Shown here: positions 17,578 to 22,098 of the stretch, piece after piece
Numbering within the stretch: the stretch's first letter is position 1
How the letters are laid out: every line of letters starts with the position of its first letter
From: a marine gamma proteobacterium HTCC2148
GTDB taxonomy: Bacteria > Pseudomonadota > Gammaproteobacteria > Pseudomonadales > Halieaceae
Length of the DNA stretch: 61,120 bases
Direction of reading: 5' to 3'
Assembly: GCA_000156295.1 (NCBI GenBank)
Contig: DS999239.1
Location: forward strand, 1-61,120
Made by a program: the position numbers and the translations under genes
The notes under the pieces: model-generated
Database searches by the model: none
The model's input: only the letters and a program-made list of their open reading frames with translations
What the model was told of the DNA's origin: nothing

Positions 17578-17647
17578 GAGGTACCTCTCGATTAGTGGTG
17601 ACTCTGGGCCACGCAAGCTTTTCATAACAGTCTAAAAAAGCTGTGGC

Positions 17648-17676
17648 ATTATATACGAGTTACCCACACCTACAAA
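17648..17676 (-). promoter_or_regulatory. Possible promoter of the cytochrome c5 gene
   Basis: A perfect TATAAT -10 hexamer on the minus strand (17648-17653) lies about 70 bases before the c5 start. The -35 region around 17670-17676 (TTTGTA) is a weak match. Confidence 0.4.
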
Positions 17677-17690
17677 GGCAATACCACACA

Positions 17691-18356
17691 ATGTCTGAAC
17701 AGGACCAAGTCCCCGGCCCAGCAACCCCAAACTACCGCGGGGCGGCGTATCTGACCAGCGCAGCCAAGCTTCACCAATGCCCGCCAGATAAAGGTTGGGA
17801 GGTGGCATTTGCAGGCCGGTCGAATGCTGGAAAGTCGAGCGCAATCAATAGCTTAACTAATAATAAAAAGCTCGCTAAAACCTCCAAAACTCCGGGGCGT
17901 ACCCAGTTGATTAATTTCTTTGAGCTATCAACGAGCCAGCGCCTGGTGGATCTTCCAGGCTATGGCTTTGCCAAGGTACCGGTGGCCGTGAAAAAAGAGT
18001 GGACAAAACAGTTGGAGAATTACCTGGCCAAGCGACAGTGTCTGCGAGGCATGATTCTACTCATGGATGTGCGTCATCCGCTGCAACCTTTTGATGAACA
18101 AATGCTCAACTGGGCACTCACAGCCCATATGCCCGTGCACATTTTGCTCACTAAAGCCGATAAGCTCAAGAAAGGGCCCGCCAATAACTCACTGCTAGGT
18201 GTCCGCAAGGCAATGAAAGCCCACGAAGCGCTGGTCTCGGTGCAGCTTTTCTCGGCACTAAAGCACAGCGGCCATCAGCAATTGGTAGAGGTGTTGGACG
18301 GATGGCTGACCGATGCCAGCGTTTACGATCCGGACGAGGACATTGAGAGCTGCTGA
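17691..18356 (+). CDS. engB: Ribosome biogenesis GTPase EngB (YsxC/YihA)
   Basis: GTPase of 221 residues needed for 50S subunit assembly. G motifs are in order: G1 GRSNAGKSS (42-50), G2 threonine in KTPGRTQ, G3 [10 protein letters not shown] and G4 TKADK. The ATG at 17691 gives the usual N terminus; an in-frame ATG at 17643 would add 16 atypical residues. It is divergent from the cytochrome c5/c4/dsbA genes and near polA, the same grouping as in Pseudomonas. Confidence 0.95.
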
Positions 18357-18386
18357 GCCAGGCTTGTCGCGCACCTGTTCGCAGAC

Positions 18387-18421
18387 AAAAAAATCGGTTG
18401 CCCCTAAGGGGGAGGCAACCG
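18387..18421 (-). terminator. Intrinsic terminator of the candidate small RNA
   Basis: On the minus strand CGGTTGCC pairs with GGCAACCG, extended by inner C-G pairs and interrupted by one bulged base, then ATTTTTTT. No annotated minus-strand gene ends nearby: the polA stop is about 970 bases away and across mtfA. Confidence 0.85.
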
Positions 18422-18507
18422 GAACACCTAGAGTCTCTGGGGAAAGAGACTTGTTCGCGAAGACCCATGAAGATGAAGCCTTCTATAGGGATGTAGCATC
18501 TGCTACC
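18387..18507 (-). ncRNA. Candidate small RNA in the polA-engB gap (Spot 42/ErsA position)
   Basis: About 120 nt, leftward, with no coding potential. Three hairpins are visible in order: GTAGC/GCTAC (18506-18493, AGAT loop), GTCTCT/AGAGAC (18450-18433) with a C-rich TTCCCC loop, and a strong terminator stem (18421-18395, 10 bp with one bulge) followed by seven T. Spot 42 in enterics and ErsA in Pseudomonas are encoded in this gap on the polA strand, as here; mtfA has slipped in between. No sequence match to either is claimed. The 5' end is estimated. Confidence 0.55.
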
Positions 18508-18512
18508 TAAAC

Positions 18513-18539
18513 TACGACCAAACAATCTGACATGAGTTC
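18513..18539 (-). promoter_or_regulatory. Possible sigma-E/AlgU-like promoter of the small RNA
   Basis: GAACTC (18539-18534) and GTCGTA (18518-18513), 15 bases apart, resemble an extracytoplasmic-stress sigma promoter (GAACTT and TCTGA/TCAAA type). The -10 match is partial. No good sigma-70 promoter was seen at this place. Confidence 0.3.
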
Positions 18540-18562
18540 AATCAAGCACAGGGTTTTCACAT

Positions 18563-19390
18563 ATGGCTGTAACCATTTTTCTCCTCATTGTGGCCGCTGG
18601 GGCGATTCTATTCATCTATCAAACGTTTTTGCGCGACAAGTGGATCAGGCAAAAGCCCTTCCCCGCGCAACATGAGGCGATACTGTCCTGCAACCTGCCG
18701 ATCTACCCTGCGCTTGGCGAAGATCAGCAGCATCGGCTGAAGCAGCTGATCCTTCTCTTTCTGACGCGCAAGCAATTCTACGGCTGTGCTGGCCTCGAAA
18801 TCACCGATGAAATTCGTATTACCATTGCCGGTCAAGCCTGTTTGTTGCTGCTCAACAAAGGCTGGCAGACCTATCCCAAGCTACTTTCTGTACTGGTGTA
18901 TCCCAGCGCTTTCCGTGCAGAAAGGGATCAAATGCAGGATAACGGCACGGTTGCGATAGCAAGACACGACCTGCTGGGAGAGTCGTGGAGTAACGGCAAG
19001 GTCATCCTATCCTGGGACGACGTGGAGAAGGGTGTGTCTGACTTTGGCGACGGCCATAACGTGGTGCTGCACGAATTTGCCCACCAGTTGGACGGCCTGT
19101 CTGGCTCAACCAACGGAGCCCCGCCCCTGCGCAGCAATAGCTACCAGTCATGGGCAAGAGTCTTCACCGAAAATTTTGAAGATTTACGCCATCGCAGCCA
19201 ACGCGGCCTGGCGACGGTAATGGATCAATACGGCACGACCAACCCCGCGGAGTTTTTCGCTGTCGCAACAGAAGCTTTCTTTGAGCAACCCTGGCAACTG
19301 CAGAAGGCCAGACCTGAGCTTTTTGCAGAGCTACAAGCCTATTACCGGCTTGACCCCAGGGAGTGGCAACGCAGCACTGAGAACGACTAG
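18563..19390 (+). CDS. mtfA: M90-family zinc peptidase, MtfA-like
   Basis: Metallopeptidase of 275 residues with the zinc motif HEFAHQLD near residue 170 and the downstream [17 protein letters not shown] segment that supplies the remaining ligand region. An N-terminal hydrophobic helix (about residues 3-20) suggests membrane anchoring, unlike E. coli MtfA. In E. coli, MtfA binds the glucose regulator Mlc; no Mlc homologue is in this window, so the target is unknown. Its stop codon overlaps that of polA within a shared CTAG. Confidence 0.87.
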
Positions 19391-22098
19391 TGGGCCTCGT
19401 CCCAATTATCACCAACCCCCGCCTCAACCAATAAGGGTACCGCGAGTTCGGCGGCGCCGGACATCAGGCGGCATACCTGGTTACTGACTGCGTCTACTTC
19501 ATCGTTAGCCACCTCCAGTACCAATTCATCGTGCACCTGCATAATCATGCGAGCGTTGGCGTCGCCCTGCTCCAGCCATTGGTCGACGGATAGCATCGCC
19601 CGCTTGATAATGTCTGCGGCACTGCCCTGCATGGGGGCATTGATCGCTGTACGCTCGGCGGCCTGTACCCGCATTTTGTTGCGGGCATTAATTTCCGGTA
19701 AGTACAGACGCCGACCAAACAGCGTCTCCACAAAGCCCTGCTCTTTGGCAATCGCTCGGGTGCGATCCATATATTGGGCCACTCCGGGATACCGTTCAAA
19801 ATAACGGTCGATATATTCCTGGGCCTCGTGGCGCCCAAGATGTAGTTGCTTGGCCAGGCCAAATGCCGACATGCCGTAAATCAGACCGAAGTTGATAGCC
19901 TTCGCCTTACGGCGCTGATCGCCAGAAACTTCATCCAGACTAACTTCGAATACCTCCGCAGCCGTAGCGCGATGCACATCCTGCCCCTCTTTAAAAGCCG
20001 TGAGTAAGCTCGGGTCATCGGACAAATGCGCCATGATGCGCAATTCGATTTGCGAATAGTCCGCAGCCACAATGCGAAAGCCTTGTGGCGCAATGAAAGC
20101 CTGGCGGATGCGCCTGCCCTCCTCTGTGCGGATCGGGATATTTTGCAGGTTAGGGTCAGAAGAGGACAACCGCCCCGTCGCAGCCACGGCCTGGTGATAG
20201 GAAGTATGCACCCTGCCCGTTTGCGGATTGACCATCCCCGGCAATTTATCCGTGTAAGTAGATTTGAGCTTCGACAAACTGCGGTATTCCAGCAATAGCT
20301 TAGGCAAAGGATAATCCAGGGCCAGCTCTACCAGCACCTCTTCGGCGGTACTGGGGGCTCCCTTTGGCGTTTTCTTGATGATCGGGAGCTCTAGTTTTTC
20401 AAACAGGATTTCTCCCAGTTGCTTGGGAGATCCCAGATTAAACTCCTGCCCCGCCAGTTCATAGGCAGCAGACTTCAGTTCTTCCAGCCGCAGCCCAAGT
20501 TCAGTGCTCTGCTGATGCAGCATTTCACAAGACAGCAAGGCCCCCTGCCGTTCAATTTTAGACAGCACCGGCACCAGTGGTAATTCAATATCCCTGAACA
20601 CCGGCAACAAGCTGGAGAGTTCTTCCAGCTTGGGCCAAAGAGCCTGGTGCAGGCGCAGTGTAATGTCGGCATCTTCGGCCGCGTAAGGACCCGCCTCCTC
20701 CACCTTGACCTGGTTAAAGGTGAGCTGCTTGGCGCCCTTTCCCGCAATGTCTTCAAAGTGAATGGTGTTCTGGCCCAGGTATTTCAGCGCCAGACTATCC
20801 ATATCATGGCGCGTCGCGGTGGAATCGAGCACGTAAGATTCCAGCATCGTGTCGTAATCAATGCCTTTAAGTGCAATGCCGTGGTTGGCCAGGACGCTGG
20901 CGTCATATTTCAGGTTCTGGCCCACTTTAGCCTGATTTGGGTCCTCCAACAGGGGTTTCATTTGTGCCAGTACTGCATCGCGGTCTAGCTGCTCTGGCGC
21001 GCCCAGGTAATCGTGCGCCAACGGAACGTAGGCTGCTTTACCCGCTTCAATCGCAAAAGAAACACCCACCACTTTCGCTTCCATATAGTTCAGGCTGGTG
21101 GTTTCAGTATCAAAAGCAAACAACTCGGCCGCTTCCAGCTGTTGTAGCCAACGGTCCAGCTCCTGTTGCTCGGTGATGATCTCGTAGCTGGTTTCCAACT
21201 GCTCCACCACGGGGGCTTCACCCTCCTCCAGCAAGTCCTCCAACCAGGCACGAAACTCCATCTGGGTATACCACTCTACCAAGGCCTCCCGATCGGGCTC
21301 GGCATTAGCCAACGCCTCGGGGCGTTGGTCCAACTCCACGTCCGTCTTGATCGTGGCGAGCTCGTAGGACATGTAAGCATTGGCTTTTTCCGCCTCGAGC
21401 TTGGGCGCCATGGTTTTAGCGCCGCGAAAAGACAGTTCCGCTACTTTATCCAATGACGCATAAATATCGTCCAGGCTGCCTATACCCTGCAGTAAACCCA
21501 GGGCAGTTTTTTCGCCCACGCCAGCAACCCCGGGAATGTTGTCGACTTTATCGCCCATCAAGGCGAGAAAATCGATGATCAGGCTCGGCGGGATGCCAAA
21601 TTTTTGCTCCACACCCGCTTCGTCCATCACTGTATCGGTCATCGTGTTGACCAGGGTCGTGTGCTTATCCACCAATTGCGCCATATCCTTATCGCCGGTG
21701 GAGATCACTACACTCCTGCCCTGCTCACTCGCCTGTCGCGCCAACGTGCCAATAACGTCATCAGCCTCAACGCCCTCCACACAGAGAAAAGGCAGACCCA
21801 TAGCACGCACTATCGAGTGAATGGGAACGATTTGCTCGCGCAACTCATCGGGCATCGAAGGGCGGTTTGCTTTGTACTCAGGGTAAAGGTCGTCGCGAAA
21901 GGTCTTGCCCTTGGCATCAAACACCCCAACTACCGGGCTTTCGGGGTAGTCCTTGAGCAGCCGACGGAGCATATTGATCACGCCTTTGACCGCTCCGGTC
22001 GCCTGACCCTTGGAATTGGTGAGTGGCGGCAGGGCATGAAAGGCCCGATAAACATAAGACGAGCCATCTACAAGCACAATAGGGGGTGTTGAAGCCAT
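19387..22098 (-). CDS. polA: DNA polymerase I
   Basis: Repair and Okazaki-fragment polymerase of 903 residues with all three activities visible: the N-terminal 5' nuclease domain ([33 protein letters not shown]), the 3'-5' exonuclease domain with an intact [10 protein letters not shown] motif, and the polymerase domain with motif [13 protein letters not shown], motif [15 protein letters not shown] and motif [12 protein letters not shown]. The length is close to E. coli PolA. It converges on mtfA with overlapping stops. Confidence 0.97.

Follow-up and report, generated by a model that had tools for sequence, protein, structure and literature searches.

A probable small RNA gene beside polA in marine Halieaceae, with a predicted RpoE-type promoter and C-rich loops, and its possible relation to ErsA and sX13

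Spot 42 RNA is encoded on the polA strand, has a CRP-repressed sigma-70 promoter, and carries unstructured pairing regions. Its gene is located at the polA locus, as stated by Schmidtke et al. (PMC3771888), who also describe alphaproteobacterial αr7 sRNAs at the polA locus, with three stem-loops and C-rich motifs, and the Xanthomonas RNA sX13, a 115-nt molecule whose three C-rich loops target 4G motifs. According to the same source, mutations showed that the C-rich loops of sX13 are needed for the repression of mRNAs with G-rich motifs, and sX13 is Hfq independent. The ErsA RNA of Pseudomonas is described as having a sigma-22-dependent promoter (PMC5819304), and its U-rich domain II has been predicted to pair with anr (PMC8575079). 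Burkholderia ncS35 was considered as another polA-locus RNA and was rejected, because PMC5760752 places it elsewhere. In the open-licence literature, which leaves most subscription journals outside, no publication that unites these RNAs has come to our attention, and a search of that literature revealed no sRNA described for Halieaceae.

Here, we analyzed a 61,120-nt stretch of DNA (the window; contig DS999239.1) from the marine gammaproteobacterium HTCC2148, a member of the Halieaceae, in which a first-pass annotation had proposed a minus-strand small RNA between engB and mtfA. The coordinates, strand, terminator, and promoter hexamers were as it had described (Table 1), and no minus-strand gene ends nearby: a plus-strand gene lies between the RNA and the end of polA at 19387. 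That mtfA-like gene, on the strand opposite to the RNA, separates the RNA from polA by approximately 870 bp; its overlap with the end of polA is 4 bases (19387–19390). The minus-strand region 18512–18387 is very probably a real, non-coding small RNA gene of Halieaceae (Seongchinamella/Pseudohalioglobus group), one of ordinary type that represents a new sequence family. Its transcript would be about 120–126 nt long, with a predicted 5' end near 18508 and a 3' end in the T run.

Table 1. Features of the small RNA locus and its neighbours in the window (gene names are those of the first-pass annotation)
Feature	Coordinates	Strand	Evidence or remark
engB (yihA), convergent neighbour	17691..18356	+	
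Small RNA gene (very probable)	18387..18512	-	Fold z -3.7; conservation mostly from the -10 element to the T run; R1 115.8 bits
Intrinsic terminator hairpin, C-rich loop and T run	18387..18421	-	Terminator scan; two-sided changes in 7/12 pairs
Hairpin 3, GUCUC-UUUCCCCA-GAGAC, C-rich loop	18433..18450	-	5/5 pairs invariant (n = 19); CCCC invariant
Hairpin 2, variable stem, loop UCAUCUUCAUG in the window	18459..18483	-	Covariation in relatives
Hairpin 1, GTAGC-AGAT-GCTAC	18493..18506	-	19 sequences: 4/5 pairs never vary, the fifth fails in one
-10 element GTCGTA (read 18518-18513)	18513..18518	-	GTC invariant in the 19-sequence alignment
-35 element GAACTC of a predicted RpoE/AlgU-type promoter (read 18539-18534)	18534..18539	-	GAACT-N16-GTC conserved
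mtfA-like gene, separating the RNA from polA	18563..19390	+	
polA	19387..22098	-	

The first BLAST search (E ≤ 1) gave at least some match in 37 of 58 genomes, including the window's own. Among the nine best matches elsewhere, all but one started at query positions 44–57 and ended at 176, that is, they ran from near the -10 element to the T run; the exception covered positions 19–179, and weaker matches covered less. At all 19 loci collected (L001, the window, to L017, together with L019 and L020), the RNA follows polA on the polA strand, the position that had been claimed for it, and engB follows the RNA in 18 of them, the contig ending first in L010. At six of these syntenic loci an mtfA gene separates the RNA from polA, and at the other 13 none was found beside the RNA, which agrees with the earlier proposal that mtfA is a later arrival and gives it the look of a recent insertion. 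A covariance model built from the 19 loci, R1, scored 115.8 bits on the window RNA, from which it was partly built. At E ≤ 0.001, R1 matched 54 of 120 family genomes, 19 of them its training genomes and 35 drawn from the 101 new ones; the RNA is not universal in Halieaceae, which counts against the regulatory reading proposed below. Four family members without a convincing BLAST match were also fetched (L073–L076). In L073 and L076, which likewise count against that reading, the polA–engB gap measures -4 and 15 bases, and the near contact of the two genes implies loss or relocation of the RNA; L074 carries a degenerate copy (R1, E = 0.0019), and L075 has the RNA (R1, E = 7e-10). These computations support both the conservation of the element and its position.

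The minus-strand unit, with one additional base, folds at -44 kcal/mol (z = -3.7), a lower energy than any of 200 shuffled sequences. The three hairpins of the first-pass annotation are all present, and a GTAGC/GCTAC hairpin precedes them, so that the count rises to four, terminator included; its length estimate of roughly 120 nt becomes 120–126 nt. C-rich sequence occupies two loops in the window RNA, those of hairpin 3 and of the terminator. The terminator scan gave a 10-bp stem with seven G-C pairs and a T run at 18421–18395; terminator-like sites are not rare in themselves (three found in 1.9 kb versus 2.4 expected), and the case for the RNA therefore rests on conservation. Among 33 family loci, 26 fitted a first sequence pattern and 30 a looser one, with L110, L121, and L124 excluded, and CCCC was found in the terminator loop of all 30 sequences listed.

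The first-pass annotation had pointed to compensatory changes in the stems as the pattern to look for among relatives, and such changes are present; its refuting case, stems that vary between conserved flanks, came out the opposite way. In the 19-sequence alignment, 95.7% of the cells were paired versus 91.2% in shuffled alignments, and two-sided changes occurred in 7 of 22 pairs versus 2.9, neither value being reached in 500 shuffles; further pair types, however, were no more numerous than in shuffled alignments (59 of 500 as high), which counts against the reading. Hairpin 2 is the most variable hairpin in sequence. Two-sided changes affected all seven of its pairs in 16 relatives, with a covariation score that none of 500 shuffles attained, in a test that favours structure because these 16, the window excluded, were taken from 28 sequences mostly for having a 10-nt loop that allowed a gapless alignment. 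In the 28 sequences themselves (the 30 above without L075 and L011, in which the loop anchor is missing), exchanging the 3' flanks between species reached the observed pairing in 0 of 10,000 permutations, and 18 of the 28 have a perfect 7-bp stem. The hairpin 2 loop reads UCUCCAUG or UCCCCA in most relatives, with CUCCA or CCCCA inside it. Because hairpins 1 and 3 hardly vary, covariation says little about either; the constraint on their sequences and loops is plain. Taken together, the computations support the structure.

The RNA is preceded by GAACT-N16-GTC with identical spacing at all 19 family loci, including the window, where the two hexamers are separated by a 15-nt spacer. The same element occurs approximately 90 bp before the rpoE start codon in 14 of 19 genomes, the window's own included (97–101 bp before the codon aligned to the RpoE query), and reads GAACTCCAGTGTGCTTTGACGGTCTAT upstream of rpoE in that genome; the other five rpoE upstream regions lack it, which counts against the match. 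As a control, the pattern occurred in 160 of 3,800 random 350-bp windows from the same loci, an overestimate because some of these windows include the promoter. The genome encodes one RpoE above the curated cut-off, followed by frames that we take to be RseA/MucA-like and RseB/MucB-like. The strict pattern GAACTT-N14/15-GTCTNA had no match in the whole genome, which also counts against the assignment, with one match per strand in a backward control; both promoters found here, that of the RNA and that of rpoE, depart from the strict pattern, and the GTCTAT of rpoE would fail it. A sigma-70-like site was not found in 17600–19500, where 1.0 would be expected by chance. Computation thus supports the conservation of the promoter and its sharing with rpoE, and the stress-sigma promoter of the first-pass annotation stands on sequence grounds. 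Because the same element precedes rpoE, the RNA is most likely part of the RpoE envelope-stress regulon, and RpoE control is the best reading of this promoter.

The promoter is also found more widely. In a survey of 58 polA-side gaps, of which five were too short and 53 were counted (18 of them brought in by R1), it occurred on the polA strand in 30 of the 53, and neither on the other strand nor in reversed form in any. When only the 40 gaps fetched regardless of R1 were considered (L065–L104, eight of them from Pseudomonadaceae), it was present in 18 of the 35 with room; the one in L100, approximately 525 bases after polA, may be there by chance. A terminator stood at the right distance in 25 of the 53 gaps, with CCC in the loop of 23 of these.

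R1 also reached beyond the family. In the order, it matched 40 of 293 genomes, eight of which are Halieaceae. Of 22 loci fetched from other families, 17 are adjacent to polA and/or engB, a position not encoded in the model. The strand was as in the window in 16 of these 17; in L051, where the polA–engB interval is about 1.9 kb, the match is opposite to the polA strand. In the class, 8 of 274 genomes matched, the window's own included, and four of the seven others adjoin polA and/or engB, one of them (L230) with three copies in view, each with the promoter. The RNA of a metagenomic gammaproteobacterium (L161) is at engB too. The matches away from both genes (L041, L049, L054, L057, and L058 in the order, 5 of 22; L231, L234, and L236 in the class, 3 of 7) have E values of 2.7e-6 to 0.002 and may represent either C-rich terminators matched by chance or copies that have moved. 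A Pseudomonas match (G155 at 3468629, E = 0.0017) is not at the polA gene of that genome and was attributed to chance. In L048, L053, L079, L088, and L230, which represent several families, the polA locus holds copies in tandem, each under a separate GAACT-N16/17-GTC promoter; the genome of the last (G569) has four anti-hemB matches in a row, below the cut-off.

When the whole window was searched with Rfam at gathering scores, no family matched, ErsA, sX13, anti-hemB, and Spot 42 included, and at E ≤ 10 the 321 bases 18300–18620 matched only TtnuCD28 and CRISPR-DR37, both by chance. At the level of Rfam families, this bears out the first-pass label of a lineage-specific member of a positionally conserved sRNA group. 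The label may be too modest: R1 finds RNAs at this locus in further families, and one of these families appears intermediate with ErsA. Pseudomonadaceae (f21) were recognized by PrrF above its cut-off (12 of 293 genomes, all in this family), and the ErsA model RF01719 matched all seven of the Pseudomonadaceae gaps given to it (L071 left out); the nine remaining sources that were scanned gave no match. R1 located ErsA itself at the right place in four of four Pseudomonas loci given, at E values of only 0.07–0.085. Between the two stands another family of the order, f8, four of whose RNAs (L048, L050, L053, and L079) matched R1 at E values of 1.2e-9 to 5.4e-4 and RF01719, below its cut-off, at 1.1e-4 to 0.065, and carry the ErsA-like sequence CTCCTTGTGTGTT(T/G)AGTGTTG; the RNA starts with GTAGC in L079, as in Halieaceae, and with GTAGG in L048 and L050. 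A fifth f8 locus, L104, matched neither model. Family f8 may therefore be a bridge, and common descent of the window RNA and ErsA, followed by strong drift, is probable.

These features make it quite likely that the window RNA is a trans-acting sRNA of the RpoE regulon whose C-rich loops block G-rich ribosome-binding regions, with rpoE as a candidate target. RpoE (sigma-E/AlgU-type) would transcribe it from GAACTC-N15-GTCGTA, and the transcript would stop at its own intrinsic terminator and fold into four hairpins that present the C-rich loops. We infer that these loops block the translation of target mRNAs by pairing with their G-rich ribosome-binding regions, as reported for sX13; Hfq is encoded in the genome, with a score above the cut-off. 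The candidate target, the mRNA of rpoE, has a GGGGG..GGGG leader, and RpoE would thereby activate an RNA that represses rpoE in a negative feedback. In 16 of 19 genomes, GGGG is present no more than 25 nt from the rpoE start, compared with 1 of 44 ORFs in the window, whose starts were chosen mechanically. Against 43 gene starts from the window, rpoE ranked first in predicted pairing with two loops, that of hairpin 3 (-14.2 kcal/mol) and that of the terminator (-16.4 kcal/mol), and, counting against it, only 13th with the hairpin 2 loop and sixth with the 5' single-stranded stretch. The pairing energies ignore accessibility, the starts are mechanical, and the comparison set is small, so the modelled pairing suggests the feedback as a lead. 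In the rpoE leaders of Halieaceae (L129 and L132–L149), the ribosome-binding site is rich in G and frequently reads GGAGGGG..AGGGG, followed by a GTG start. A G-rich Shine-Dalgarno sequence is constrained for its own sake, which counts against the argument for rpoE as a target.

Other explanations of the element are less convincing. It could be only the polA terminator or 3' untranslated region, or an RNA processed from it, and at the 13 syntenic loci where no mtfA gene was found in between, read-through from polA would indeed end at the element. This reading is very unlikely, given that a promoter of fixed spacing stands between polA and the hairpins at all 19 loci, that hairpins 2 and 3 have conserved loops, and that the window RNA has been kept approximately 870 bp from polA despite an mtfA-like gene on the opposite strand. 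That the RNA encodes a small protein, as an mRNA or a dual-function RNA, has next to no likelihood: an ATG in the hairpin 2 loop and a 23-codon ORF that starts elsewhere and ends inside the window RNA speak for it, and against it the changes in hairpin 2 preserve pairing and no shared small ORF was found, 12 of the 30 sequences having no ORF of at least 10 aa that ends inside the RNA (ORFs running past the T run excluded) and the others differing in start and length. Alternatively, the C-rich loops might titrate a protein or another RNA in place of pairing with mRNAs. A sponge of this kind could account for the stems of hairpins 1 and 3 being nearly invariant in sequence and shape, beyond what pairing needs, and we regard it as improbable in view of the mutational evidence that the C-rich loops of sX13 are required for mRNA repression, as far as PMC3771888 describes it.

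The likeliest alternative to our preferred reading of an RpoE-regulon sRNA is that the window RNA is a direct orthologue of ErsA (RF01719, Pseudomon-1) with the same targets. The two RNAs share the polA–engB gap, which in the window also holds mtfA, the polA strand, a GAACT-N-GTC promoter, C-rich loops including that of the terminator, and the terminator itself; the f8 RNAs that match R1 and, below cut-off, RF01719, and the faint R1 matches to ErsA, point the same way. In contrast, RF01719 does not match the window RNA even at E ≤ 10, the U-rich unstructured domain II of ErsA, as described in PMC8575079, has no evident counterpart here, where hairpin 2 lies between hairpins 1 and 3, the promoter spacer in Pseudomonas gaps is 17 versus 16 here (by eye), and L104 matches neither model. 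Direct orthology with shared targets is on balance doubtful.

If the window RNA is a regulator of the preferred kind, marine Halieaceae gain a probable regulator with a predicted inducer. The locus, its relatives, and the intermediates suggest that many bacteria have housed a single type of regulator next to polA and offer, for several families, a sequence-based answer to a question left open by Schmidtke et al. in PMC3771888, as posed there. They also yield a testable common mechanism, in which a stress-sigma promoter is combined with C-rich loops directed against G-rich ribosome-binding sites.

Compared with the other named RNAs, the likeness to Spot 42 (RF00021) that had been proposed holds for position, the only likeness tested, since its gene is also at the polA locus, and does not extend to sequence, as RF00021 has no match to the window RNA. 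The αr7 sRNAs resemble it by description in the polA locus, stem-loops, and C-rich motifs. sX13 (RF02232) likewise lies downstream of polA and has C-rich loops on stable stems, but its model does not match the window RNA, and the two sX13 loci over the cut-off (L238 and L239) lack a GAACT-N16/17-GTC promoter, which the window RNA has. As to the three C-rich loops of sX13, the window RNA has two CCC loops, and most of its relatives add the CUCCA or CCCCA of the hairpin 2 loop. The sX13 model matched 12 of 274 class genomes, these two over the cut-off; 7 of the 12 matches adjoin polA and/or engB, with those below the cut-off coming from other families, and three, none over the cut-off, have the promoter. 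The anti-hemB RNA (Burkholderia RNA 7, RF02837) shares the C-rich loops and terminator with the window RNA, but its model does not match it, and its hairpin 2 loop, UCCUCCCU or CCCUCCCU in five folded loci, is unlike that of the window RNA. At E ≤ 0.001, RF02837 matched 123 of 274 class genomes, only 13 over the cut-off, and many of the 123 may be chance, because weak matches also turned up in control genomes (3 of 14, including Escherichia coli). Among its best 30 loci in the 274 class genomes, 23 adjoin polA and/or engB and 16 have GAACT-N16/17-GTC; the name and scope of anti-hemB, taken from Burkholderia hemB, may thus be too narrow. Some RNAs appear in the match lists of both RF02837 and sX13 (e.g., G481, G555, and G632), and L059, from the window's order, matched R1 and, below cut-off, RF02837.

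Seventeen loci were picked by hand for folding, of which 16 gave a stretch (L042 did not, and that of L087 was wrong); among these 16 RNAs, 11 had exactly four hairpins and 14 had two to four CCC loops, and a folded f8 copy had two hairpins and one CCC loop. The promoter and the layout are thus widespread without being general, and a unification of these RNAs is still hypothetical. With a probability that we place somewhat short of even, the window RNA is one branch of an ancient polA-side lineage of RpoE-regulon sRNAs spread over much of Gammaproteobacteria (in the GTDB sense), which kept its position as the sequence diverged, with ErsA, sX13, and anti-hemB as other branches; conservation would extend to the hairpin layout, to the C-rich loops, and to the promoter, which some branches (e.g., sX13) would have lost, together with one duty, the damping of rpoE through its G-rich ribosome-binding site. 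The RNA may matter mostly as a possible tie between small RNAs that are filed apart in Rfam.
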